From NCBI GenBank assembly GCA_963971425.1, contig OZ020518.1, positions 6,551,989-6,615,988 of the forward strand: 64,000 nucleotides of DNA, read 5' to 3'. Of the stretch, positions 12,291 through 34,667 are shown in pieces. Made by a program: the position numbers and the translations under genes. The stretch comes from Bryoerythrophyllum caledonicum. Its lineage: Eukaryota > Streptophyta > Bryopsida > Pottiales > Pottiaceae. Every line of letters starts with the position of its first letter. Within the stretch, counting starts at the first letter, position 1. The notes under the pieces are model-generated. The model was not told the origin of the DNA and made no database searches. It worked only from the letters and a program-made list of their open reading frames with translations.

Positions 12291-15200
12291 TGTTCAACAT
12301 CCTCCTACACGGTCCTTTGCGATGAAGGATCTCACTTGGGCGCTGAATTACAGAGCACGACGTGGAAAATTTGCTCGCAGTCAGGTGATCCAATAGTGTT
12401 ACATCCCAACAATGCGTGTCCGGGACTTCCTTAATGGGATGCAATGTGGGAAGGATGGAACTCAATGTCTGTTCCGAGAGACAAAGGAGAACCACAAGCG
12501 ACCCGAAGAGGCGAGGCAAGGACCTCAAACGGCGCTAGATTTCGCAAGGTTAGTACTCCGAGTCCTCTCTTTTTTGCCCAACAATCACCTTCCTCTTTCC
12601 CTTGTCCAGTCATGACTAATTCAACTATGGTTTTCGGTAGATGGCATTGCGAATACGGCCCGGAAGATCATTCTGGAATTGTCAAAAAAATAACTGCAGA
12701 TCTTCTGCCCAGAGAGAGGAAGAAGCTGACCACTGTCAAAATAGCCGCAGAAGAGGGTACAAGTATGAAGTTGCATGTTAAATGACAAGCCGCATCAAAG
12801 AGGAAAGCGCCACAAAAATTTCAGCCAAAGCCATTTATTCCACTTGATTTGAATGAAAATCCTGAAGTCGAGGTTGAGGTCGAGGTCGTCCCTACGAAGC
12901 CGGTGTGCAAGAGAGCCCCCTGGAAGAAGACTGCAACCTTGGCAAATCATGCCGAATGTCCCCAGGTCTCTGATTCGGATGGAGGCCTTCTCTCTACGGC
13001 TACCCAGTGTCTCGAGGTCCTTAATTTTGATGGAGGCCTTCTTTCTTCAGGTCCAAACGTAGTGACCCAACAACTCTCTCCGAAAGTGGGCTGCATACGA
13101 GCCCCACACAATAATGGGATTGGAGCTGAAATTCTTTGTCACTATACAGAAACTGTGGATATGGGTATTGATCTCAGTTTCACTCCTGCTTATTCCCCTA
13201 CTTATTTGGTTGCCCAGTGTTACCATACTGTAGCAAACTCAGTTAATGGAAATGCATGTCCCTCCTGCAATAAAGACCCGGTCAGAAAATCCAAGCCAAC
13301 TTGTAAACGTGGTCCGAGAAAGAAAAAGATCCCAGGTTTGAATGAAACCCCTGTGTCACAGATCTTCCCCATCAAACGTTCCCCGAGGAAGTATGTGCGG
13401 AAGACTACGAGGAAACAAAACTCTACGAAGAAAGGCGACTCTCCAGTCCAAGGTATGGGCCCCTTACGCACTGCTCTTTGTAAAAATGCAATTGAGCATG
13501 ATACACATGTTGAGAGCGTCAAACTATTAAGTAGTCAGTCTCCTACTTTTCTCCTAGATCAGGGTACGGTTAGTGCAAGTATTTTGGCTACTATGGGGGG
13601 GTGTGGTACTAGTCCCAAAACTAATGTGGAGTGTAACAGTGTTACAGAGTCTTCTCAAGTGTCACTACAATCGTTTTGCGACCAGGTAGACATTACCGGG
13701 TCTAAAACAAACAACCCTAGCAATGTTAGTGCGGGGAGTGTTGTGTCAGATGTGAACACAGTAGGTCCAATAGTGGTAAAGCACAAAGATTCTAGGAAAA
13801 AAAGGGCTCTCAATAAAGCGAGGGTGTATTGCTCGCTTTACCGTAAAGACTCTTTTACACGCACCTCACATTACAGAGGTGTGTGCATGAATCCCGACAT
13901 GTGAACAAGGACGGGCTAGTGGTTCATGGAGGATTTCGATTTCGTGACCGTGGAGCCTTCTCTGCCCATCTATCTCCAGTTATAAAGAACTTTGTGGATG
14001 ACTTTCTGCGTGAGAATTATATTGTACAACAGATAATGAAGAAACACCTGAGACTCTTGCGGAAGTCGGAGGCTGATGGTAAGGTTATTACTCGAGACCT
14101 GCTTCTCACTCCAAAAGACATTCGGAATATCTCACAAAAGCTGGCTAGGGAGACTTGGATGTTGCATCCTAATGATGCTCAAAGTGTACGAATGTGGGTT
14201 CAGAAGAACCCTGATAAGGTATTTCACTACACCGAGACAAACCTTGCAAAACTTGTACAAGTGCAAGGCCAGTTGACCACTGACAATATCTCGTTTACCA
14301 TTGGGATCCAGACCAAGTGGCAAAGAGAGATGATGGCAAAGTACGGACATGGAGGTGGAATCTCCATTGACGCCACTTTTGGAACCAACGACAAGAAGGT
14401 AGTTGTTGTGTCTTGTCAATTCTTAAATACCCTCTCCAACTTTGGACAAAGTGGATGTGTGTGGTTGTCTGTAGAATAGAGTTATAATTATATTTGATAC
14501 TAACCAGGAGGGACTTGTGACACTATTTGTTGTTGTGTAGTTCCCTTTGTACACTGTTATGGTGTTCGATGAGTGGCACCAGGGCATACCAATTGCTTGG
14601 ATCCTGACATCCCAATGCACTGAAGATGACCTTACTCCGTGGATGGAAGCTCTAAACCGTCGAGTGAAACAAGAAATGCCGGATTGGAAACCGTCAGCTT
14701 GTATTGTGGATTGTGCCCAGGGAGAGATCAATGCACTTATGTAAGTTCTTTCCAACATCTTCTGTTTATTATCAATGTAATGGTGATACTATTCCTTAAT
14801 CTTCTGGTACTACATATATCAATTTGAATGGCATTGTAACTCTTGTTTATTTTATAGAACATGTAACCTATGTAACAATAATATCCGAATATGAAATAGG
14901 AGTTTGTGCTTTTCGCAGAAAAATTTGGCCTGACACTCCAATCTTCCTACGCCTTTGGCATGTTCGGCGTGCTTAGCAGAAACATTCTTGCTACAAGATA
15001 AACGACCCTCTGCGGAGAGGTGAGGTTCTTCGAGAATTAGGACTTATGATGTATGACAAGAGCTCGCCGTCTGGCAATGAATCAAAGACTTGGGCAAAAG
15101 ATAGGATTGAGAAACTCAGTAAACAATATCCTAAAGAGGGGGAATTTTGGAAATACATGGAGAAGCAGTGGTTGGGTAAGGTACATATGTGGGTTGTAGG

Positions 15201-16092
15201 TTATCGGAACTTACCTTACGCAGGACAAGACACAAACACAACCATTGAAGGGTATCATGGATTCCTGAAGGCTATTCTAAAGTCGGAGAGGTGTCGCATG
15301 ATTGGACGACGTGTGGATTGGAGCATCACTGCTCTTACTGAAGACGTTCACGATTATTTCTGGTACAAAGGGCTGCGTAAAAAAAAGGGTTTTCAGGATA
15401 ACAAGAAAATGCAGGACTTGACTGTCTCCGCGTTGATGAAGGCGCGTGACATTCCAGATTCGGATGTGACACTGCATGTAATGCCAGGGGACTGCGCCCT
15501 GGTTACTTCAGCGCGTCACCGACATATTCAATATGTGGTTCATAATCCCGGTGAAGAATGGGCAAGTTGCAATTGTGTTTGGACACAACGAGGAAACATT
15601 TGCAAGCATGTTCTAAAGGTTCTTTTGATAATGCCGCCAGATATTGTTGAGGGCACCATTGCCCGTGTCTGCGGTAGACAGGCAGGGAACGTGTTAGGAG
15701 GCATGAGGCAGTTGCTAAGTCCTACAAGGGTTCAACTCGGGCCAAAGGTGGAGGATATCTCAATTTCAACTCTACACCAAACTCCAACTCGGAAGACCGT
15801 TCTTACAAAAGACGTTGCAGAAACTCTGCGAAATCTTATGATTGACTTGCGAGATGAAATTTCTGGGTAGCCTGTCCTCATGGACCACCTTCTAGCGGAT
15901 CTAAACCAGGTAATAGGACAAATCCGAGCTTTAAAGGTAGAACTTCGTTCTGGAACATTGCATCTGTTTGCGGCGTCACCAGTGTTACGGACAGTTGATG
16001 ATGGACGAGGTTTTAGCCTTCTCAGAGGTAAAGACTTCTTAGAACGGGGGAGAAAGTCTGCTGCAAGACAGTTGAGAATGGTTGGTTGCTGA
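12247..16092 (+). pseudogene. MURA-type MULE transposase, decayed (DDE plus SWIM zinc finger)
   Basis: Exons run 12247-12548, 12641 to ~13890, ~13890-14398, 14541-14740 and 14919-16092, with GT-AG introns and consistent phases. Catalytic D motifs are visible in SIDATFGTN (~14368) and IVDCAQGE (~14707). The probable E is in NTTIEGYHGFLK (~15240). A SWIM-type CNC...ICKH zinc finger lies at ~15571-15610. Lesions: in-frame TAG 12394, TGA 12783, a frameshift near 13883-13904, TAG 14974 (at the Trp normally found after WHVRRA) and TAG 15868. After the last stop the same frame continues to KDFLERGRKSAARQL and a stop at 16092. The ORF would otherwise exceed 1000 residues. Nuclear transposase of Mutator elements by family knowledge. 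Confidence 0.9.
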
Positions 16093-19220: not shown

Positions 19221-21786
19221 CTAACAAAAAGGGGCTCGGTATCTGACATCTCTACGTTTTGGGTTTAACTCCTTTGCCAGAAGCACCAATATTTCTTTGT
19301 TCATCTCCTTTGCAGTGTGTTTTAAATACTCCACGTACAACTACACTTCTTTTGTAGATGCTCTGTTACCTCGAAACTGTAGTGTCACACAGTGCAAAGT
19401 CAATACGTTGTAAGAACAAAAATATAATGTCACAAGTCCAGCCAACCAAATTGAGATCATAAAATCAAATTACGAAATGATAACATATAGATTACCTTTA
19501 GGTATAACATGATGTTGCGAATGCATAGATGACCACACTCGTTGACTCCAAGTTGTTGAAACACCTCAATGGGTAGGACATTGTCCACTTGATACTCTTC
19601 TATTCCTCTGAGACACTACCAGGCCGAGCATAGCCACCTAACGAGTTCTCCATGCCTTCCTCTGGGAAAATGCACTACGTCGGAGCAGGAGTCTAAGTGA
19701 AACACTCGTTGAGGTTGCAAGACCAACACGGACCAGTGTCCATCGCTAACCCATGGAACAATCAATTCCTTCACTTTGTGAACCTGCACTCCTTGAGGGG
19801 AATGTTAATTGACAAAACATCCCATTCTCATGTAAAAATAGAATCCTGAGTACTAAAATTAAGGGGGGAGGTTTCTTTCATTGAACGCGGTGATGAAGTA
19901 GCCTTCCTCGAACAATTTGGGATTCACTGACTGCAATGAACACGGATGGAAGATGAGATCATTTGGTTATTTTTAAAACAAATGTCGGATCGGTAAATAA
20001 CAAGCAAGAAGAAGGAACTCAATGTTATAGAATAAACAAATCATTACTAAAATTTGGGATAAAAGACAATTAACAAACGGACTTACTGTCGTGGCTCCAT
20101 GGTAGGGGGGTAGCTTGGCAAAAACCCCCTCATTGGCTGATAGAACGCGCCAAAGTGGACACCAATTCCACAGGATTTTTTCTCGAAGCATCGCATTTTT
20201 CTCTCGAAACTCGATCCAAGCCCTCTGTACCATTGCATACTTTCATCCTTCTTTCTCTGCATGTAGCCCTTGCTCTCTTCTTTGAACCGGGAATAATCAA
20301 ATGTCCATTGCAAATATGCACACAACTGATCGAGCTCAGGGTAAGGTTCATTTGCACATCTACTGGCCACAAGCTGGTCCATGGACGCCGAAATGTCTTC
20401 CCGAATTCCTTTAAGGTCGTTCGCCAAGTTCTTGTCAAACTGTGGAAGGTTGTCCAACACTCTGGTTAGCACATACTAACGTAAAATCCACGTTTCCAAC
20501 GTAATGTTATGTAGAAGTAGTTCTAAAACCCAAAATCCAAAACAATGAAGCCGTTGTTCACCTTTTTTTATGTCCACCACCAAAGACACTCCATGAGTTT
20601 CTCTTGGAACTCTCAAGTTGGAAAAGACTCCTCCCAAGCACAACGGAATGCTTCACCACTACTGTGATCCAAAGACCACAGCAGTCTTACAGACTCTTGA
20701 AATGCCATCAAGTGAAATAGTCCCGGCATCTTTGGCTTCTCCGGCGTAGAGGGGGGTGATATAGCACTCATCATGTCATCTGCCTTTCTCTGTGCTCATG
20801 CTACATGAATCCTCTCCTGGCATTGCAATACTTCTTGTCGAGCATTAAATTGTCCTTCCATGTGAGGGTTAAACCTAAACGGCTTTGGAGACCCTTTGCC
20901 CTCTGCCCAGTACTGTAGCAGCTGGACGTTAGCCTCCCAGTTCTTATCCCACACCGGCATCCGTGACACAACCTCGTCTAATCCACCCTCGTCATTATCT
21001 AGCGACTCTAAATCTGGGCTCGCAAGATTCTTGCGAGGTGACATAGCATCCATCACTGGCTCCACGTCAGGGTCGCTTTGATCACCCAGGGTCAGAGTAG
21101 TCTCATGGTCCGTAGTATTTAAGGGATCCCTTGATCTGTTAGCCGTGGTTACAACAATAGCCGTTCCAATAACTGCAGTCGCCACTTGTTGATCCTATTG
21201 AGGTTGTACGGAGCCCAGAAGAGAGGTAGATGTTAGTCAAATCATATACAACTCCTCTAACGCCCATGTTGGGCCCTCTCCAATTAGTAATTGCAAGTAT
21301 CCTCTAATATCATCTAGAACATACTACAAAGCTTGTTGTAGTAACTTACCGAGGAGTTCGTCTTTGAGGGAAGTTTGAGTTGCCTTCCCAATTTTGTCTC
21401 TGTTGACGCCATCCTCAAGATACGGAGTCTTTGTTGCACAATCCCTTGTGCATGACCCGCCTTTGGTACAGTCTCCAATTCAGGTCCAACCAGTGTTATA
21501 GGGACCGCCTGGGAAGGCATTGACACCAAAGATGTTGGTGCAGGCTGTGTCACACCATGCATGAAAGCCGGCCCTAAAGGTTCTGGATGAGAATCCAGAA
21601 CGATCTTATCACGCCCCCGTTTTCTCTTACCATTTTGGTTGACGCCAGAACTTGGATCAACATGTTGACCACCATCGTTGCACAATACGTGTCCCGCAGG
21701 CTTGTTCGGCTCCCTCCTTTGTCGCTCTTGTTGGTTTGTGCGAGGGACCACTGCTGTAACCTTCATTGATGCTCGTCCACTCTCAC
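19221..21786 (-). pseudogene. 3' half of the MULE minus-strand gene, with Ulp1-type cysteine protease domain
   Basis: Recognisable exons: ~21766-21350, ~21185-20630, ~20472-20087, ~19936-19860, 19783-19496 and 19340-19221. The 19783-19496 exon (96 codons) has Ulp1/C48 protease motifs: His in DGHWSVLV (codon 16), Asp in FHLDS (31), Gln in FQQLGV (77) and Cys in NECGHLC (83), with Gln-Cys spacing as in Ulp1. Ulp1 proteases cut SUMO-like proteins. Damage: TAG at 19616-19618 lies between the Asp and Cys, TGA at 20796-20798 interrupts an otherwise open exon, and a frame change precedes the protease exon (~19790-19840). The 5' half lies beyond the CACTA element, and the frame is continuous across the insertion point. 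Confidence 0.8.
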
Positions 21787-21789
21787 GCG
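21787..21789 (+). repeat. CACTA target duplication GCG, left copy (right copy 33671-33673)
   Basis: The three bases outside each CACTA end are GCG. Confidence 0.85.
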
Positions 21790-21807
21790 CACTATAAGAA
21801 AACCCTG

Positions 21808-22020
21808 TTTTTTCTGATGTCTAAATTAGACATCTTGAAGATTTTTGGATGTCTTCGTGTCTTAGATGATGTCTTAGAGGACATCCCGATGTCTTGGATG
21901 TCTAATAAGATCAGTTGGAATTGGCGAGGCATGGAGACGGGGATGTCTGCCAGATGTTTGTCGAGACGTCAGAGTTTTTTAGATGTCTTACGAAACATCT
22001 CCGATGACATCAAATTGCCA
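21808..22020. repeat. Left subterminal GATGTCT repeats of the CACTA element
   Basis: About ten GATGTCT or AGACATC words in both orientations within 210 bases of the left end, including inverted pairs such as GATGTCTAAATTAGACATC. Subterminal repeats of this kind bind TNPA-type protein in En/Spm. Binding here is inferred. Confidence 0.75.
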
Positions 22021-22761
22021 CGCTGGCAAGGGATTTTGGTCCAACGAGGTCAAAACGTGTAAAAGTTACTGGTATGCGAGGTAAAAAGCATTTCTACTGT
22101 TCTAAAAGTAGCTTAATGGCAGCGGTTTTCAAGAGTGAAAAAAAAAGACATCACACTTTTCAAAAGTGTTTATTTTTTTCCTATTAAAATTTTTATTTTG
22201 TAACATGGCAATATTGGAAATATTAAATTCAGAATATTCTCACTGATTTGTCATTGGTCCAGTTTTTGAATAATATAAAAATATAATTTTATATTTTAGT
22301 AAAAATATAATAAGTAATTTTTTAATATATTTAAGTAAATTATGATATTAAAATAATGTATTTAAATAAAAATATTATTCTTTATTAATATAAAATTATT
22401 AAAATAATTAAATAATATTATATAAATAATTAAATATCAATAAAATATTATTGGTGACAAAAAATAGATTTTCAAAGTATAAGTAATTTCATTGATATTT
22501 AATCCTCAAAATACACATGGACATACATGAAAAAGGTAATTTACAGCGCTTTCGTTGTTGGCAAGAAAAACTCCACGTCGGACGACTTGACAAGTCATAC
22601 TACATCTAGGCGGATGTCTCTGTGGACATCCGGCTTACTATGACTACAGTAACGCATAAACCTCACCGTAGACATCCACTGGGATGTCCGTAAAAATGTC
22701 CTGCACGACATCCTACTATACGTCCTTTACCCCAAAGCGGCAGTACCAACTTCTTCTGTTA
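22021..22761. other. Non-coding left arm of the CACTA element
   Basis: Very AT-rich from ~22140 to 22480 (mostly A/T words), then a second GATGTCT cluster at ~22600-22715, just downstream of the transposase stop. No gene seen. Confidence 0.55.
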
Positions 22762-23691
22762 CTACTCATCCTGCATTTTACCATCACTGTCTGAATTTGT
22801 TGTGGCTGTAACATAGGACCCTCCAGTCGGCGCCGGTCTCTGAATAGGCTCTATCTCCAAGATCTGCGGTTGTAAGCCTTGGAAGTTCGCGTCGTCACCA
22901 ATTGCGATTCCATTCGCCACAAGTTGCCGATGATGTAATGTTGTACGCCGACCGCGGACGTCTGTTCGGCAGATGATCTTCCATCCGCGTCTTGTCGGGT
23001 CATCGGAGAAAAAAACTTGTTGACAGTGCAAGGGGAATGCAAATGAATCCGGATGCACTCTATTGTCGATGTGGTTGAAGTTTGCCATGCTGAATCCGTA
23101 CTTGTCACGCTCAATACTCGGCACTCGCACGTCCGGTGAGGCTCTTACCCATTCGCATAGCAAAACCGTGGTGCAGTGATTACGGTAATCCAGCTCCACT
23201 ATCTCCTGGATATATCCCACATGCTCTGCGGTATGCTCAATGGGCCTCCCATTGCGAATCCCCCAACGCAACTGCTGTGTATAAGTGGCCACTACACATG
23301 AGTCTCGAGTAACAAGGCCCGCCTCCGACGTCCGCACCCGCAAATGCATCCCGAATGCATTCATATGCCGATGAGAGGTTGCGAACCGCTCCGGAGGACA
23401 GGAATAATGTACGACGTCCTCGTCAAGACGATCACCGGCCGCTTCTGCTTGCAGCACTCGTGCCTTTAGCCAATCTGCAAAGCATGGCAGATCCCTCAGC
23501 TCGGGGGGGTACGTCACAGGTCTAGAGGATCGATGACGTCTTGACTGTACTCGAAATGCTTCTCGCTCTTCCCATCGGCGTCCCTTCGCAATGATGTATT
23601 CCCTGTGCACCACTCCCACCTCTGTTATTAGACTATTCAATTCCATGCTTAACACACACAACACATGTGTCAACTGCTGAAATGTCCTCGA

Positions 23692-23835
23692 AGATGTCTG
23701 TATAGACATCCTAGCGTCCGTGCTAACAACGCCTACTACATCTACATTGACGTTTGCAAGACATTTCTAAGGACTCATGAATGTTAGAAGGGATGTCCTA
23801 CTAGACATCTTCCTTGACATCCATGTCTATCAGAC
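23692..23835. repeat. GATGTCT/AGACATC cluster in TNPD intron 3
   Basis: Seven or so words in both orientations inside the intron 23648-23929. Confidence 0.7.
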
Positions 23836-24625
23836 TTCGATTCGATCATTCATGTTACCAAGGCCCATTTCTACAGGTGCCAACCACAGGGACGGCCTGA
23901 CATGCCCAAGTACTGGTACAGGAACTCACTCTGGCAAAGGTTCCAAGCACGTTGCGTTGTCGATGACGAATGCATGTACGTAGCCCCGTACCTCATCAGA
24001 CATTCGGCGCTTTGTTGTTTCATTGCACCCCAAGATCTCATCATTCATGGTAGCATCTTCGTTTGCGTCCCATACTCGGAAATTTGTTGCTCTATGGCGT
24101 TTCATGTACTCTGTACAGAATCCAAGTGTTTCGTCGAGATGGTACCCTTCTGCTATGCTCCCTTCGGGATGTGTGTACGTCCTTACGTAATCTTTGAGCG
24201 TCTTCATGTATCTCTCGATTGGATACATCCATCTACAGTGGACCGGTCCACATATGAAGAGTTGTTCCACAAGATGTACAGGAAGATGCGCCATCACGTT
24301 TAAGAACGTCGGTGGGAATTCCTTCTCCAACACGCATGTTGCCATTACCACATCGTGCATGAGACTATCGCGGGAGTCTTCTCGTACCTCCTTCTCGCAT
24401 ATGCGCTGGAAAACCCTGCACATTTTGATGATCGCAACCCGCACCTCTTCGCCAAAGACGTTGCGAATGGCCACCGCAAGTATCTGCAACCCCCCATACA
24501 ATCATCATGTGCAAGTAAGAAACTACTGATCCTCTGACATTGAGTTATGCGTGCCTGTAAGAACGGATTGCCAGTTCCATCTACCTCAAAAGAGGTGTAC
24601 AAAAACATCAACCGTGTCTGCATGG

Positions 24626-24662
24626 ACATAAGGATGTCCTTCTGGACATCCTTCTAGACATG
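24626..24662. repeat. GATGTCC/GGACATCC cluster in TNPD intron 2
   Basis: Four spaced words inside the intron 24484-24784, of the form AGGATGTCC...GGACATCC...AGACATG. Confidence 0.7.
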
Positions 24663-25228
24663 CGGACGTTTGAAATGATGTCTCAAAGTGATGCGGGTTC
24701 CTACTATATTCAGTTCTTTTTAGCACCTCAACTCTTCTATGTACTTTAGTTTTTTCAGAACTCATTTCCAATTCAACTTCGTACCTGTTGCATAAGGACA
24801 TGGTAGTCGTGCGTCTTCATATATTGTAGTTTCCCGTCCTGCAACCGCTTGTGAATTGCCCCCACGTACTTTGTTGGAGTTCGCATACTTGAAACTATAT
24901 GAACGAACTGTTGTTTCTCCTCTAGCTTCAGAATGTATGGGGCCTGCGGCATGTAGTACTCATGACCTCGACAACGTGGGGACTGCAACCAAATCTCCTC
25001 ACGTATGTTCAAGTCCTGCAGATCTTGGCGACTTCCAGGGCTGTCGTTCATTCCAAACAACGTCTTCAGAATGTTCTCGCATAGATTTTTTTCACAGTGC
25101 ATGACATCCAAGATGTGTCGAACCTTCAGATGCTGTTTCATAATAACCATTCATGTGATTAGATCCATATTCCTCGTGCTCAATATGCCGTGATTGAACG
25201 GTTCACTATCGTCCACGTCTAGCTGTTG

Positions 25229-25285
25229 TAATTGATGTCTACGAAGACGTCTACGAAGACATCTGTCAAGTCTCAGAAGACATCC
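25229..25285. repeat. 12-base GATGTCTACGAA array in TNPD intron 1
   Basis: GATGTCTACGAA, GACGTCTACGAA and GACATCTGTCAA are consecutive 12-base units, followed by AGACATCC, inside the intron 25133-25364. Confidence 0.75.
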
Positions 25286-27150
25286 GTGTGGAGTACCGTG
25301 ACGATTATATGCCTGTAAAGTGCGAACGACAGCTGTTACAACAGAAGATGAACGACTTGTTTACCTGCCAGTACGGTAGCTCGAAGAATGCACTGAGACG
25401 CTTGACTCCCGTGCTGTGAACAGGGTCACCGGGAGCCCCTTCCCGCCCACCAAGATCCAAGTATGATTGCCGCCATGCAGCGTACCGGATAACGTCTAAC
25501 CCTGAGACGGTTGGTGGCGCCGTTCGAGTCTCACGGTGGCCATTGAACCTAGTGTACCTCCGATATGGATGCTGACGACCGAGATATCGACGTATTCCCC
25601 CATACACTATCTTCGAGCCTCTTGCCGTACGGTCAGGGCGCAGATCCCCAGTCTTCGCCATACGAGCATCCGTTTGTGGGCCACAGCAAGGACAACCTTT
25701 ATACCCCTTACATGATAGACCAGAGATCAGGCCGTACGCCGGGAAATCCGAAATAGTCCACATGAGCAACCCGCGTAGGTTGAAGCGTCGAGACCCCACG
25801 GGTTGGCTGAAATCCTGTACTGGTACACCTCGCCAAAGTTGCTGTAGCTCGTTCAACAATGGGCGCAGGTATACATCAATGTTTGTCGCCGTGGGCGACC
25901 GCTTCCCCGAAATCAATATGCACAATGATATGAAGAACTTCTTCGTAACAAACCACGGCTCCAAGTTATAAATCAATACCAGCACTGGCCACGTCGACCA
26001 GTTTGTGTTGCTCAACTTGAAGGGATTTACACCGTCAAGTGCTAAAGCAAGTCGCATGTTTCGGTCCTCACATCCGAAGATGTCAAACGCAGCGTCCGTG
26101 TTGATGTGCTTCCACGCGGGACTGTCAACTACAGATCGCATAACTCCATCGTCACTAACATGTTTTTTGTAACCGGTCAACATGCTTGCAATCTCTGGCG
26201 ATCTCCACATTCGTTGAAGCCGCGGAATGAGAGGGAAGTGTCTTATCACCTTTGCTGGGATGGAAGTTGTGCCCTCCAACCATCTAGACTTCGAACACTG
26301 TGGGCATGTCACCAACTCTGCATGATCATTCTCATACAATACACAGCCATCTGGACAAGCATGGATGTTGTTGTAGTCCAACCCCAATCTCCGAATTGTC
26401 TTTGCGGCGGCATAATGAGTGTTGGGCAGCTTGTTGTCCTTCGGTTAGTAAATCCTGTGCCAAGTACCTGAACAATTCGGTTCTGAAAGTGTTGCTGACC
26501 CCAAACACAACACACATGTTCATCAGAACGATTGTAGCAGAGACAACGCTGGTTTTTGCTCCTGGATACACTGGTGTCGTGGCTTCCGCATACAAGTTCT
26601 GCAGTTCATCAACTGTGTCGCTATCGAACTCATCATTGTCTACCACATTGGGTTCGCCTCCTGCATCCCTGTGTAGTGCATCACCACCATCCAAAGCATC
26701 CATAACCTGGCGCTGGACGTCGTGAAACTCATCGAGTAGTATGGCGTCTGCGTTGACATCATCCCTTCTAGGGACATCGTGAACAACATCGTCGGGGACA
26801 TCATCAGCGTCAGCTGTGCCACCATCATGTACAACGTCGTCATCGTATGCAACATCCTCCACCCATATACCCTCCGGTGGATACCCATGAGGCGGGTCAC
26901 CCCCGATGATGGACTTAGTCAAAAATGGGTCTCTGCCAATGGCTGCGAGGTGCTCTCGGATGACGGCGATTCTCTGGCGTTGACCCCCATGGCAGGTTTG
27001 GCAAGGGCAGTAAAATGATGATATGTTTTGCGTCGTTGCCACTCGTAGCTCTGTCTGGAGGATAAGGTCCGCAAGCGGGATGTGACGCATTGTCCGCCCA
27101 TCAGCATCAATTCGAATCGTTGCGCCATGGCGGCACCGCTGTGTACTCAT

Positions 27151-28545
27151 TGCCGCAACTTCGCTGCGAAGTATAGAAAAATATATTATACCATGTTAGA
27201 AATCATACTGATCGTAAGGAACACGGAAGAAATGACTTGTACACGACTGCGCATTGTTCAAATTTGGCATCATTTACTGCAGAATGTGTACGAGGATGTC
27301 CATTTAAACGCAGAGACGTCTATGATAGCATCCGTAATGATGTCTCCTAAGACATCGTACGTGGTTGGTATATCTACGTCAGAGACCACAACGTATTATC
27401 CCTGTTCTCTACAGCCATGCACATCATTATAGATGGATGATTATAGGTGTTCTGCCATAGGTGATGGTAGTATACATCCACTGCATTGATCGTACGTGTA
27501 CATGCGCATGCATACATTGCTGATAATAAAAAATAACCATCTTAAGAGTACTTAGTGCAATACAGAAAAGACAATCTTCACATAACCATACATAGAACGT
27601 GAACATGCAATTGTAAGACTGTGTCTTGATCATTAAAGATGTCTATGAGAACATCCATGATGACATCACAGTAGACGTCCTCAAAGAACGAACCTTGAAC
27701 AGATTTCATTGTCCTTCAGCACTTACACATGGAGAATGGAAATGACGGCGTCTAGAAGTATATGCACAAATTCACATCATGAATATCGAATATGTGGATC
27801 GAAACTTTCTTACACGATAGTATGAAGTAAATGAAGTATTGTACTCAAAATGCAGACGTTAATATAGCAATCGAATACATTGGGATTGTACCTTGGAAGT
27901 AAGTCTTCTACAAAATACGAATTGCGCAAAGTAACGTCCTCATATAGAATTATTATCCACTTGTACACTATAGGCATGAACAAAATTTTATACACAGATA
28001 ATGTGATTTTAATTTCCAATTTACTTCACTGTACAGTGCATTTCATAACATCAATGTGCATGGAGTGCGAAAAAACATCGCAAGCTTCTAGTCTCTTCAA
28101 TTTTCCTTATGTTCAAATAGTAATTCTTCATACAATGAAAGAAAATACATTCCTATTGATTTCCAAACTCCAAACTTGGTTGTTCTATGTCAGCTGAAAG
28201 AATGTTCTGAATACTTCCCATGATGCTTAACTTCTGCCAACGTAAAGTATGAAATAACTTCTTCACCTGCAGATGTCTCCTGGGATGTCTACGTAGATGT
28301 CTAACGAGATGTCTAAGTAGATGTCTAACGAGATGTCTAGACGTCAAAATGACAGTAGGAATAAATTATAAGCAACCCTAATCCACGTGTCCAACCTACC
28401 TAATCCACGTGTCCAACCTACTTAGCATCGGCTGCGCATACTGTCAAACAGCTACGGCAATTGTGATAAGCTACGACTCCTACTTTTCATGCAACCAAGG
28501 TCCTCAATATTCCTACCTTAGTGCATACCATAGCATTCTGAAAAC
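27151..28545. promoter_or_regulatory. Divergent intergenic region between the two CACTA genes
   Basis: No coding frame of note. It holds GATGTCT clusters at ~27295-27355 and ~27636-27680 and a strict array at 28273-28345 (listed separately). Both genes are transcribed away from it, so it should contain both promoters. No clear TATA box chosen. Confidence 0.5.
28273..28345 (+). repeat. Six-unit 12-base GATGTCT array
   Basis: Six consecutive units GATGTCT plus five variable bases (CCTGG, ACGTA, AACGA, AAGTA, AACGA, AGACG), strictly 12-base period. It lies upstream of the plus-strand CACTA gene. Confidence 0.85.
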
Positions 28546-28848
28546 ATGGAGGGAACTAGAGGATTTCATGTGCGTTATAGACATGGTGGATGTGGAGACA
28601 CCGTACCAGAGAAGTTGCGAGCGTCCGTGGTTACAAACGCAGCTCTCGACGTCTTCAATAACTTTGTCGATACCCTTGCAAGAGTCACACCGCCTACAAC
28701 AACAATGAAAGAGCAATGTCAAAATCCCGGAACAGAAGTGCGGCGGAGCGCGCGATTCAAGGAAGCCATGGAAGCAAATCGGCGACCGCAATTACCTCCT
28801 CCTACACCAATCTCCGTACGAAGTATTGCGAAAACGATGGATCAGAAG
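28546..28848 (+). CDS. Possible 5' exon of the plus-strand CACTA gene
   Basis: An open 101-codon frame from ATG (MEGTRGFHV) to ATGGATCAGAAG followed by GTATGT, a good donor. I could not find an acceptor that joins it in frame to the exon at 29736, so it may be a separate small gene or use an exon I missed in 28849-29735. No motif recognised. Confidence 0.4.
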
Positions 28849-29643
28849 GTATGTAGCAACTGGAACCCTAAGCTCCACCTCAAATTTCGTCACTTCCTCC
28901 ACATGCGATGTGGACCTCCACTTTGCTCTTGGGATTGAGGTCGCACGAGCAGATTGATGCCTGCAAAAGGGGAGGAAGTTGGAATCGGGGCATGGAGACA
29001 AGATTTTCAACAGCGCTGCGCCGATCAACCAGCGCTGGAGAGGGTTTCTGAAATCGCACGGCCATAGGGCCTGCACGGTGATAGGGCGAGGGGCACGGTG
29101 ATAAGTCCGGAGGTCGGTGATGGGTGACCGCGGACCGAGCCTTTAAGGCTGCCGCCTTTCCTGCATCGTCTCGCACCTCTGCACTGTGTAGACGTCTCCT
29201 GCGAGGTCACCTCCCCTCCTCCGAGCGCTCTACCGCTCCGCTTCTGCAGCTTGATCCTCGCTGATGAGCCCGCTCTCTCCCTTCTTGAAGATGTGAAGCT
29301 CCGATCCCCGTCGAACGTTTTTGTTTCTGGTTTTGGAATTGTCTGCTTCCGTCAATTTGTGGTTCTTCTCCTTACCTCCACATCTGTTCTGCAATTGATT
29401 TTCAGCTTCTTCATTCGTGATTTCGTGGCTGTGAAATTTGGTGAGGGAAAAGTTCGGTTTCGTACGGTTGGTGTGCTGCAGGACGTCTGTTTGTCCATTT
29501 CATGACTCCCGAACAACAGTCGTAGCAGTAGTACGACGAGGTGGTGTATGTGCTTGTGCTCATGTTCATGATCTTCTGAATGATGTGGTTTGATCCGCAT
29601 TGTGAATACCGTGATTGTGCTGCATGTTTACTTCGAAGTATGA

Positions 29644-29690
29644 GACGTTGTCCGCGAAGATGTCTGACTGGATGTCTAGTAAAATGTCTA
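29644..29690 (+). repeat. Four-unit 12-base GATGTCT array
   Basis: GTTGTCCGCGAA, GATGTCTGACTG, GATGTCTAGTAA and AATGTCTAATTT in strict 12-base succession, just upstream of the ATG at 29736. Confidence 0.75.
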
Positions 29691-30420
29691 ATTTTGTGCT
29701 TCTGTTCACTAAAAGTGTGTTTTCATGTCTGTGGCATGGCTGCGAAGTACGAGGCGTTTGTTGAGTGGCCAGCCAGGCGCGTCATGATGACGAGGAAGGG
29801 CCAGAAGAAGCGGCCGCCATCGCCACGCAGAGAAGACAGCCACACTAGAGAGTTGTGGACGAAGAATCGCGAAGACGTGCAGGCAGGACCCAGCAACAAG
29901 CAGAAACGGTCCGTGGCAACTGAGGCACAAACCCGGACAAAGCGGATGAAAGACCTTGAACTGCAACAAGATTTCCGGTGAGTGCACCAAAAGATTGAAA
30001 ACATGTGATTACTTTGTGGTTTTATGTTGTATTGTTTTATCAGCCAAGGTTTCTTGTTGTACAGTCGGGGGTTTGAAGACCGAGAATATGAGGAGGAGGC
30101 AAACGACACAGAGGATGAGGAAATCGAGGACGATGACATCGCTGAAGAGGCAACACCCGAGGAGACCCCTCTGCAGCGTGGATCAGCACGGCAGTTGAAG
30201 AGGGAAGCGGTGAAGAAAGTCTTGACCGTGGACGAGAAGGGCTTCCCTTATGGGAACTTGAAGAAAGCATACGAGGAAGATTTGCGCTTGATCTCAAAGG
30301 AGTTAGATCCAAACTACAACTTCAAAGAGCAGACTCAGGCGATGAGGGAGAGATTCTTCAATCGCTTGGCAGGAGGTAAGAGAATTGTGCTTCTGTTGGA
30401 GGGGATGACGGTTTTCTGTC

Positions 30421-30491
30421 TAAGAAGATGTCTATTAGGATGTCTTCAGGGCTGTCCGGCAGGATGTCTACGAAGATGTCTGCAGGGATGT
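30421..30491 (+). repeat. Six-unit 12-base GATGTCT array in an intron
   Basis: GATGTCTATTAG, GATGTCTTCAGG, GCTGTCCGGCAG, GATGTCTACGAA, GATGTCTGCAGG, GATGTCTCAC: strict 12-base period within the intron 30376-30522. Read in frame it would encode repeats of (R/G)-Cys-Leu. Confidence 0.85.
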
Positions 30492-31357
30492 CTCACAGCG
30501 TCGATTGAAATATGTTTTGTAGGGTGGGACGTGAGGGGGGACGGCGTTGACGACGAAGTGGACTCACCATGGATCGCTACGAAGGTAAACAAGGCGTTAA
30601 CAAACCGACGCTATGCACTGAACCAGCTGATCGATAGAGGACATCGGAAACCACCAGAGGTGACAGATCAGCAATGGAACAAGCTCGTGAAGAGAAGGAG
30701 CACCTCAGAGGCCAAGGTGCAGTCTGAGAGAATGGCATATGTCTCGAAGGGGAAGGGCAGCAAGCGACCAAGGCCCGCAGCGCTCAGGGAGGCGGCGGTA
30801 GTGAAGCTGGTAAGCATCTTCGAAGTTGTTGGGGACATCCTGAGACGTCTGTGCAAATGTTATCTTTGTTGTCTTTGTTAAAATCTGTGCCTCCAATTCT
30901 GTGAATACTTTACTGTAGTGTTGCCGGCTTCACCGCTCACCGTACGAATCAGAGATTAACGAGGAGATGGAGGCGTAGTACAATGAAATGCAGGAGGATA
31001 GGGACATCGATGACGACGATGACGATGTGCAGGAAGTCGAAAACAAGCTGCAAGAGCTCGAGCAAAAAATGGAGGCATCAAACAAGCGTTTGGAGGGGAG
31101 GATTTATGCCTCCAGCACGCGCTTGGAGGCCAAGATTGATGACTCTCATTAGCGCTTAGAAATGATGATCCGCCAGCTTTTGGACTCCCAGACTTCCTCG
31201 ACCCCGCAACCTCACATGGAGCTGCCAGTACCTACAACACCCGTGTTATTGCACGTTACTTTGGAATACTTCTCCTTCTTATCTTCAAAATTATATCCAC
31301 ACAAATTCTACAGTTTCTACACTTACAGAATCTCCTTAAATGATCAGTTTATGATAA

Positions 31358-31425
31358 GATGTCTACGAAGATGTCCACAAAGATGTCTTAAGGGATGTCT
31401 AAGAGGATGTCGAAAAACATGTCGA
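31358..31425 (+). repeat. Five-unit 12-base GATGTCT array in an intron
   Basis: GATGTCTACGAA, GATGTCCACAAA, GATGTCTTAAGG, GATGTCTAAGAG, GATGTCGAAAAA, then CATGTCG, inside the intron ~31255-31459. Confidence 0.85.
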
Positions 31426-31817
31426 ATGGGCTAACCTGCAGCGCGTTTCGTTATTGCAGGTTACTCCTACACCAACAACCACTATGGACAAGACGCGGCC
31501 AGCATCTCCAAACCATGGCACATCGGGCGTGTCTGAGCGCATGATTGGGCAGGATGCCAACATGGGAGCTGCGACGGACAAGAAAGAAGGCACGTCCATG
31601 GAGGTTGCAGAAGGAGGGGGATCAGAAGAAGGAGACACTGTGGTAGGCACGAGTACGGTGGCTGAACTTGTAGAGGAGGTTGAGGAGGCCATTACACCGG
31701 TGCTTGCAGCAGAGACGGTAGAAACGGAGGAGATTGCAAAGGTAAACTTAGATTAGACATGCAGTGACCATGTTTGGGACTGTGCACGTCACCATGTTCG
31801 GAATGCCTTTTGCAGCG

Positions 31818-31888
31818 ACATCTGGTGGACGCACAGACGTCTTTGGAGACATCCTTGCGTCAGTAGAGACATCCAGCAGACATCTTTG
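31818..31888. repeat. GACATC/GACGTC cluster in an intron
   Basis: GCGACATCTGG, CAGACGTC, GAGACATCC, GAGACATCC and CAGACATC in the intron 31742-32039, mostly 12-14 bases apart. Confidence 0.65.
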
Positions 31889-32498
31889 CAAACACTGTTA
31901 TGTTTTAAGCATGTGTCTGAATGTCATGGTGGAAAGCCAGTGCACATAGTTTTCAGTGTTTTATGGTAGCTACATGTTCATGTCACACATTTTGCTTGTT
32001 TGTGCATAATATTTCATGTTTGAAATATGTTAGAATCAGGAGGCAGTCAAAAAACAAGATGAGTCCTTGGGATATTTTGTAAGGTGCAATGCGAAGGCAG
32101 GTACCGAAACAAAGGCTCCGGTGAAGATGCCCAAGCCTGCAGGATTGTCAAAACCGGGAAAGTCTGTCACACCAAAGGCAACGGGACAATCTCAACCGAA
32201 GAAGGCACATGAAGAGAAGCAAGGAAGCCAGTCAAAACCTAAGAAGGTGGTTGATAAGGTACAGAAGAAATGACTATGATATTATGTTTGGACTTGGTTA
32301 CTTGCATGTATGCACATTTTTTTCTGAAATGGACCCGTATGGTGGTAAGGAAAGCATAGAAAACACATGAAGATAGAAGAAATAAGCCCTGCTTTGTAGT
32401 ACAGAATGAAATTGCATACGCAGAGTAAGTGAGCTGTTGTTTTTTCGCAATTCCAGAGAGGCAGCGAAACAAGATCAGAGGCCGCGAAGAGAAAATGA

Positions 32499-33275
32499 CG
32501 GCAGAGGCGTGCACGTAGGTGAGTGGAACATGACATCCAGAAGATGTCTTCATAGACATCCAGTAAAACATGTCGAAGATGTCTGCTTTGACGTTTGTGT
32601 GGACATCTTATGACATGATTCACCTTGTAATCTACTATGCTGACCGTTCGTATAGTACAAGAAGTAGGGTTATCAATTTCTTGATGTTAGGAAGTCAACC
32701 ATGTGTAGGTAGGTAGTGCAAGTAAATGAAATTAAATCAAAATTCTTCGCCTTTGGAAACCCTTTTTTAAGTGCATTCGTTGTTGGCTTATTGAACATGT
32801 GCAGCGGCGGTCATGCGCACGACCGTAGGGGGGTATCGACAGCAAGGGATGATAGTAGAGGGGCTTGAGGTTGTGGGTGCGTAGTATCTCGCAGTTGTTG
32901 ACTGGTGTATTACTGAACATGCTAGTTTTGTGCTATGTGAGCAAAGCACATGCTGATGTTATGTAAGACGTCTGTGGTTTACGGTTCTGATGTCTATATA
33001 AACATCTACAAATGTCATCCCAGATGTCCTTTAATATGCCCAAAAGACATTAATCGTCACATCGTCGCAAACATCACCAAAACAGAAAACGTTTACTTCG
33101 ATGTCCCACGAGATGTCACAACAGACATCCGTGTAAACATCACAAATATAACGGAGACATCAATCTTGACATCGTTCTAGGCACTGGAGACATCAAGCAA
33201 GACACGAAGATGTCTTACATGATGTCTAACAGAAACATCATTTGACCCTAAAACCCCCGAAAACTTTGCTGACGT
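32499..33275. repeat. Right arm of CACTA element, GATGTCT/GACATC-rich
   Basis: Non-coding. Dense words at ~32531-32610 and ~32990-33240, partly in 12-base register (GATGTCCCACGA, GATGTCACAACA, GACATCCGTGTA). Together with 33530-33660 this forms the right subterminal binding region by analogy with En/Spm. Confidence 0.7.
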
Positions 33276-33297
33276 GGCATGCAACATCATTTTCCCG

Positions 33298-33400
33298 GGT
33301 CCACGTCAGATTATCCCGGGTGCCACGTCGGATTTCCTGTGTGCCACGTCGGATTTTCCCGGGTCCACGTCAGATTTTGGCGCCGCCACATCAGATTCTA
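33298..33400 (+). repeat. Tandem CCACGTC(A/G)GATT repeats
   Basis: Four copies of CCACGTCRGATT at ~20-27 base spacing, most followed by or preceded by TCCCGGGT, plus a diverged fifth (CCACATCAGATT). It contains several ACGT cores (CACGTC), a bZIP-type word. It lies inside the right arm and has no obvious partner in the left arm. Confidence 0.7.
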
Positions 33401-33673
33401 CGGGACCACCGAAAAGTCCACATCATGATGAAATTCATTGCCATGTGGCACTGCCCGTCGACATGGCGCTGATGTGTCACCTACGTGGCACAAGTTTTAC
33501 CCTCCCAAAGTTACCTCAAGACACCCTGAAAATGAGGATGTCTTTAGATAATTTTGGATGTCCGATTAGACATCCTCGTGTCTAGGATGTCTTCCTGTCT
33601 AACAAGACATTTTTTTTTATGTCTCTGCGTCAGATTTAGACATCAGAAAAAACAGGGTTTTCTTATAGTGGCG

Positions 33674-34667
33674 GTTGCATCACCTTCTTTGTAGGTGAGT
33701 GCTCCTCCTCATGGTCCCGTTCGCCATCCAGCAGGGTCGTAGAAGCGAGAACCTTTTTACTCTTGATCTCTCTTGGAACCGACTTCTCTCCTTCTCCAGG
33801 TGCTGCCCCAAAGAATAAATCAGAGACGGGGTTGACCTTCTCTACCAAATCGGATGCTTCACCGTTGACGGCTTTGCTTCTCCGTTTCTTTGATGGAGGC
33901 GACCCAACAAAGTCAGCACCCCAGTCCTCTTCGTCGACGGTGGTATGTTCTTCTCCACATCCGACGTTTTCAATGTCGGATGTTGCCTTTTTCTTACCCT
34001 TCCTACTTCCACACTTCCCCATGCCCTCCACCATCTTCCCTTGCCCAGGAAGAAAGTGAGGATAAGGAAGTAAGAGGGCTTTGCTTCCATCCGGATACTT
34101 CGCTTGGTCACAGCCTTTCTCAAATTTGTGTTGGTTAAGCATGAGCTTGTTCGAGAATGTAGACTTCCCACAATGAATGTAGATGAAAAATCTGCGTCCT
34201 CCTGTGGGCTTCAGGTGACCTTTGCATTGAGTGGCGAACTCCAGCATAAGATCCTTCATCCGTTGCTCGCTGAGATATGTAACATTGTAGGCTCAATCAT
34301 AAATCTTGACTTGCACTGTCACAGGTTCGGCGGCCATCATTTCAGGCGTGTAGGGGCAAGTTTGGGGATAGCAATCTGCACAACCAGCGTGATCAAATGA
34401 GATATATTTGAACTTGTTCACCAATCCAGCCAAATTAGTGCAGCCTTTGCCCTCACAATACACAGGCTCGTAAAACCAGTGCTCCTCAGGAATGTCAACG
34501 TGGTCTCTGCACAATGTCAAGACATAAGCATAGTTAGATTCATAATAGAAATCCGAAGTAATCAACCACAACTTGTAGAGATAATTCTGAGAGTTTCGGA
34601 AATGGACAAGACATAAATGACCGTGAATTTTAGAGAGTTTCGGTGGATTAAGTTTGTGTAGAACCAA
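33674..34667 (-). pseudogene. 5' half of the MULE minus-strand (Ulp1-type) gene
   Basis: Open frames 34667-34293 and 34291-33674 are in the same phase, separated by one TGA (34293-34295). A likely 3' splice site lies at ~34514. The first block is Cys-rich (VYCEGKGC ... HAGCADCYPQTC). The second has FIYIHCGKSTFSNKLMLNQH ending in EKGC, a C2H2/C2HC-like finger in which the expected first Cys is Tyr, then an acidic/basic linker with KKRRSK, a possible nuclear signal. The frame runs into the CACTA element at 33673 and resumes in phase at 21786. Exons further upstream (to ~35.4 kb) are likely but not resolved. Confidence 0.65.

Follow-up and report, generated by a model that had tools for sequence, protein, structure and literature searches.

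Among described transposons, the maize En/Spm element and the VANDAL elements of Arabidopsis are among those closest to the locus reported here. TNPA of En/Spm is known for its role in transposition and for accompanying the demethylation of Spm, and its sites are usually described at the element ends; VANDAL elements are Mutator-like. The VANC21 signal lies in introns, intergenic regions and terminal non-coding regions, reached through a short motif, and the targets are often tandem repeats (PMC5735166). RNA-directed DNA methylation and VANC both target non-coding regions, and the activation of Spm by TnpA correlates with demethylation (PMC10398659). We analysed a 64-kb window, that is, the whole stretch of 64,000 nucleotides at positions 6,551,989 to 6,615,988 (forward strand) of contig OZ020518.1 of Bryoerythrophyllum caledonicum (GCA_963971425.1), which holds a single, complete CACTA element at 21790-33670. 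A short motif on a 12-bp register occupies the non-coding DNA of this element, introns included, and we read its copies, with a probability of roughly 0.45, as predicted binding sites of an element-encoded TNPA-like protein that would act over non-coding DNA against silencing, much as VANC does for VANDAL.

The element and the distribution of its motif

The element is a member of the CACTA (En/Spm) superfamily, as an earlier reading made from the letters of the DNA (the sequence-only reading) had held. Its terminal inverted repeats (TIRs) are 37 bp long, identical, and start CACTATAAG, giving the superfamily ends CACTA...TAGTG; it is flanked by a 3-bp target site duplication (TSD), GCG, at 21787-21789 and 33671-33673; and it carries a Transposase_21 gene and subterminal motifs in both direct and inverted orientation. 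Removing the element and one GCG in silico joined the flanks into a single 364-codon minus-strand open frame across the join. With identical TIRs, matching GCG copies and an open rejoined frame, there is good support for the borders, and the element probably inserted recently. The interrupted frame survives as two pieces, 21314-21766 and 33674-34259, neither of which matched a Pfam family. The element contains two divergent genes:

22763-27150, minus strand: TNPD-like transposase gene with a Transposase_21 match, four exons modelled
27150-25365, 25150-24785, 24483-23928 and 23602-22763, minus strand: TNPD exons 1-4 as modelled, the starts of exons 2 and 4 uncertain
29736-32502, plus strand: second gene, divergent from TNPD and at the TNPA position, exons a-g modelled

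In Pfam, the TNPD gene matched Transposase_21 (8.8e-61) and DUF4218 (2.4e-34), with DUF4216 (8.7e-6) and Transpos_assoc (0.0041) under the cut-offs. Its exon 1 was read from overlapping open-reading frames (ORFs) in two frames, an apparent frameshift, and its four modelled exons equal the number proposed for the ancestral CACTA transposase (PMC4158355). In the second gene, exons a-d have GT-AG borders and phases that join, with two in-frame stops in exon d of this copy, while exons f and g are weakly supported. All site statistics below describe this one element copy, and the gene models are our own, made without transcripts.

The sequence-only reading had named the motif GATGTCT. Counted on either strand, the word is found 58 times in the window, with 53 of these within the element and 5 outside. 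When words over-represented in the element relative to the remaining window were ranked without regard to GATGTCT, the motif forms GACATC, AGACATC and GATGTCTA came top among the 6-, 7- and 8-mers. The word is real but too directional a description; minus words that follow plus words share the same 12-bp register, and the unit is better described as an octamer, RGAYRTCY, on that register with the core GATGTC, GACATC or GACGTC. Counts in the element versus the rest of the window were 47 versus 12 for GATGTC, 36 versus 12 for GACATC and 16 versus 4 for GACGTC, whereas GATATC was unenriched (1 versus 6). Relative to the flanks, non-coding element DNA was enriched 24-fold in GATGTC (either strand) and 19-fold in GACGTC, while the other 17 single-mismatch words stood at 0-3-fold, GATATC at zero.

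The sequence-only reading had proposed counting the motif in exons and introns against shuffled sequence, and this count came out in its favour. Octamers numbered 24 in 1900 bp of introns (12.6 per kb) and 36 in the remaining 4726 bp of non-coding DNA in the element (7.6 per kb, a doubtful exon '0' at 28546-28848 counted there), versus 1 in 5255 bp of exons (0.19 per kb) and 6 in 52119 bp of flanks (0.12 per kb). Introns held 29 cores where 1000 dinucleotide shuffles gave 1.9 ± 1.35 and at most 6, and the single exon octamer is what chance would give for the protein sequence (1.09 expected, 2000 synonymous shuffles of 4989 bp). The sites lie as follows:

21816-22712, unstranded: left subterminal and 3′ TNPD non-coding sites, 17 cores
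23693-23821, unstranded: TNPD intron 3 array, 5 cores
24633-24682, unstranded: TNPD intron 2 array, 3 cores
25234-25284, unstranded: TNPD intron 1 array, 4 cores in the order TG, CG, CA, CA
26755-26802, minus strand: the exception, in coding DNA of TNPD exon 1, three cores
27295-27679, unstranded: two arrays in the divergent intergenic region by the TNPD start, 7 cores
28272-28345, plus strand: six-unit 12-bp array with an abutting GACGTC
29659-29688, plus strand: array directly upstream of exon a of the second gene, 2 cores and 1 one-mismatch core
30427-30492, plus strand: array in second-gene intron b-c, 5/6 register positions perfect, one ORF running through the intron
30834-30849, unstranded: second-gene intron c-d, two cores
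31358-31411, plus strand: five-unit array in second-gene intron d-e
31817-31884, minus strand: array in second-gene intron e-f, 5 cores, four GACATC and one GACGTC
32532-32607, unstranded: array 3′ of the second gene, 5 cores
32967-33644, unstranded: right subterminal sites, 16 cores

Cores are thus present in 7/9 modelled introns, all three of TNPD and 4/6 of the second gene, in agreement with the earlier claim of arrays in most introns of both genes; the introns that lack them are the 87-bp a-b (29978-30064) and the weakly modelled f-g (32259-32460). At 15.3 per kb, cores are nearly as dense in introns as in the two end segments (17 in 973 bp and 21 in 1168 bp); outside introns they occupy both ends, the region between the divergent genes and the DNA upstream and 3′ of the second gene. 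All the clusters listed by the sequence-only reading were found, although the words at 24626-24662 are GATGTCC and GACATCC, and this intron has its exact GATGTCT at 24677. Its four plus-strand arrays of four to six strict units were slightly generous: three keep the period over 5-6 units (28272-28332 with 6/6 cores, 30427-30487 with 5/6 and a one-mismatch sixth, 31358-31406 with 5/5), and the fourth, at 29659, is shorter, with two perfect cores and AATGTC at 29683. The intron of the five-core array (30376-30522) can be read without a stop in the frame of the exons on either side (ORF 30024-30881); its retention would add a CLxx-repeat peptide, which we take as chance.

The En/Spm motif differs in sequence from the motif of this element. 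The two elements are alike in their CACTA ends, 3-bp TSD, TNPD-type transposase, second gene at the TNPA position, 12-bp repeat and end motifs in both direct and inverted orientation; they differ in that the element here also has sites between its divergent genes and in the introns of each. The En-1 motif is 12 bp, and the tnpA and tnpD transcripts share exons (PMC2613891), whereas the genes here are divergent. The soybean Tgm elements (Tgmt*, TgmR*) likewise have CACTA ends, a 3-bp TSD and direct and inverted subterminal repeats capable of forming stem-loops (PMC2613891, PMC4219821), but the description of those repeats places them at the element borders (159 bp left and 732 bp right in Tgmt*), with a motif of 17-20 bp. 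No report of intron-wide site arrays in a CACTA element was found among the matches listed in the open-access literature, subscription journals lying outside that scope, and much of the older En/Spm biochemistry sits in such journals. A 360-aa piece of TNPD found no relatives in viral or GTDB contigs (in GTDB, 29 pattern matches and 0 confirmed), nor did a 25-base TIR word among viral contigs.

Register, orientation and conservation of the cores

Another core lies exactly 12 bp on from 31 of the 86 non-coding cores (85 without the doubtful exon '0'); 5000 jittered sets averaged 3.4 such pairs and never exceeded 11. Register positions 12 bp to either side that lack a perfect core hold a one-mismatch core in 19/104 cases, versus 0-2/172 at each of eight other offsets. 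Neighbouring GATGTC and GACATC cores 12 or 24 bp apart comprised 16 plus-plus, 14 plus-minus, 2 minus-minus and 1 minus-plus pairs, a skew matched by 0/20000 label shuffles (sign test, 0.001), so that the mixed in-register neighbours are convergent in 14/15. Among pairs at most 36 bp apart, 14/15 plus-minus pairs keep the 12-bp register but only 1/8 minus-plus pairs do, the other seven lying at 8, 11, 17, 19, 20, 23 and 32 bp. These counts indicate that GATGTC followed by GACATC keeps register and the reverse order does not, and the former fits a unit centred on the hexamer. TNPA of En/Spm also binds inverted, tail-to-tail sites well. Arrays in the second-gene introns read plus, plus, then minus, and those in the TNPD introns are mostly convergent pairs. 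A second spacing class, at 8 mod 12, accounts for 27 of the 140 site pairs within 60 bp, versus 65 at 0 mod 12, and derives partly from one array (28272-28340).

Conservation was measured in triples chosen by perfect outer cores (n = 18, overlapping in long arrays; 17 non-coding and one in TNPD exon 1). The unselected middle cores were perfect in 11, one base off in 6 and two off in 1, that is, 8 mismatches in 108 positions. Over the 17 adjacent same-form pairs, agreement at the four spacer positions was 0.41, 0.59, 0.18 and 0.29, against a baseline of 0.28, 0.28, 0.25 and 0.30 in 1717 same-form pairs more than 200 bp apart. In a tandem repeat of recent origin the spacers would be preserved as well. 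Here the 4-bp spacers are near random while the cores are kept, so the cores look kept by selection. With the octamer densities, this sustains the view of the sequence-only reading that arrays sit mainly in non-coding DNA with variable bases between conserved words.

The central CpG is lacking in 75 of 85 non-coding cores and present in 10. The GATGTC and GACATC forms cannot carry CpG methylation at the core, and CpG-free cores are what would be expected if the sites avoid such methylation. The observed/expected CpG ratio is 0.87 in the non-coding DNA of the element (0.99 with motifs masked) and 0.68 in the flanks; the absence of general CpG decay led us to reject simple CpG deamination as the origin of all sites. 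The enrichment of GACGTC together with the absence of GATATC in non-coding DNA is the pattern that single deamination would give, and a one-sided change of the palindromic GACGTC would produce the CpG pattern observed, so a motif-specific history may apply: either the protein may need one intact GAC half-site, or methylation may have hit these sites in particular. The CpG-containing third form and the convergent-pair rule, like the VANC/VANDAL comparison made below, go beyond the sequence-only reading.

Predicted role of the sites

In VANDAL21 and VANDAL6, VANC binds coding DNA weakly, and its short motif stands in introns, between genes and at the termini, often as tandem arrays (PMC5735166). 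The element here has the same layout: its motif arrays lie within introns, between the genes and in the terminal non-coding DNA, and few are in exons. It differs in its Transposase_21/CACTA transposase, its motif, and its 12-bp register with convergent pairs, and a Pfam search of the second gene, the only search made for this purpose, recognised no VANC-like protein. We do not file the element as a member of the VANC system and suggest only that it may work alike. The end sites would serve transposition, as for TNPA of En/Spm, and the sites in introns, the divergent intergenic region and untranslated regions would load the same protein along the whole element, where it would remove or exclude silent chromatin and DNA methylation over non-coding DNA, as VANC does for VANDAL; coding exons would be spared since the octamer would constrain the protein. 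An element with sites as dense in its introns as at its ends would separate the two jobs, its internal sites perhaps being left to silencing escape or self-regulation alone. A more doubtful extension is that CACTA transposons evolved whole-element anti-silencing of the VANDAL kind independently, with a TNPA-type protein coating a 12-bp lattice whose sites moved from the GACGTC palindrome to CpG-free GATGTC and GACATC. If confirmed, two unrelated plant transposon superfamilies would have converged on the same non-coding strategy.

Several results weigh against a TNPA-like anti-silencing protein. The analysis is limited to one element copy, and the identification of the second gene as TNPA rests on its position and on a presumed resemblance of exon c to plant Transposase_24 proteins. 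A Pfam search up to E=1 with exons a-d as far as the first stop returned only LTI65_LTI78_N (0.07), far under cut-off; exons b, c and f searched singly gave no family at that limit; and the single-sequence fold of exon c was helical at low confidence (mean predicted local distance difference test score 67, predicted template modelling score 0.27). The gene tnpA is highly diverged between species (PMC8195511). TNPD and the second gene both look broken in this copy, which would therefore depend on others. The lattice is not fully orientation-blind, as minus-then-plus pairs are mostly off register, and the 24-bp unit at 28284-28339 is a recent local duplication (96% match). The sequence-only reading had exons largely free of the motif, which holds for the octamer but not absolutely, since the bare hexamer is mildly raised there (13 versus 7.3 in synonymous shuffles, P = 0.012; versus 5.6 in dinucleotide shuffles, of which a fraction of 0.002 reach 13). 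Part of this excess comes from TNPD exon 1 at 26755-26802; this stretch is acidic and rich in DDV, and a short array, with cores at 26773 and 26797 in register around a one-mismatch middle, apparently falls within its coding DNA.

The site positions near both divergent start regions and in the introns of both genes would also suit autorepression, in which the protein would occupy its own introns and the intergenic region that the genes share, and would there block transcription or processing like the Spm Suppressor, keeping transposase low; binding at subterminal repeats has been suggested to prevent splicing of host-gene introns (PMC4219821). Promoter sites alone would suffice for this, and the similar density in 3′ regions and late introns is left unexplained, so we consider it unlikely. 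We judge no more probable that the motif spread as a by-product of local duplication and hairpin copying, was tolerated only outside coding DNA, and left functionless internal copies. The clear 24-bp duplication speaks for such spread, as does the ability of convergent pairs to form 8-bp stems with 4-nt loops, in-register mixed neighbours being 14 convergent versus 1. Neutral copies should, however, decay at the core as well, and here cores are conserved between near-random spacers. A further point for the by-product is that eight unrelated viral contigs contain three-unit repeats of this word at the 12-bp period, but these differ in having spacers identical by eye in 7/8. Some of the eight appear to be copies of one another, and most of the loci come from short contigs or are pieces of contigs; they have 0-5 octamers each and no CACTA-type end by the pattern used.

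That the same motif stands at the ends and inside, and that a copy which looks damaged yet leaves an open frame at its empty site was apparently inserted recently, could mean that internal sites serve transposition only, helping to pair the ends or keeping internally deleted derivatives mobile. En/Spm and the soybean elements are described with such sites at their ends, and internal sites should compete with these, which makes this account improbable. Besides autoregulation and bridging between the ends, both of which may apply, the sequence-only reading had offered splicing control, and arrays in 7/9 modelled introns with convergent pairs that can fold might suggest splicing elements or intronic hairpins acting in RNA. 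The sites show no constant orientation with respect to transcription, and this favours a role at the level of DNA over one in RNA; terminal DNA is similarly dense and direct arrays make no such hairpins, so that RNA-level signals are very improbable.

Other features of the element and the window

Within the window, no Rfam family reached its gathering score and a tRNA search found none. Ten flanking ORFs searched against Pfam yielded nothing beyond a SWIM zinc finger below threshold at 15046-15870; this finger ends the plus-strand ORFs at 12849-15870, which perhaps encode a Mutator-like transposase. Inside the element, an AT-rich block of short irregular repeats lies near the left end (22206-22448), and a ~21-bp repeat of 4-5 ATTTTCCCGGGTGCCACGTCAG-like copies, separate from the 12-bp arrays, occupies 33289-33397 in the right subterminal region. 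A 22-bp perfect tandem duplication with CACGTG is found at 28377-28421, between the six-unit array and the second gene.

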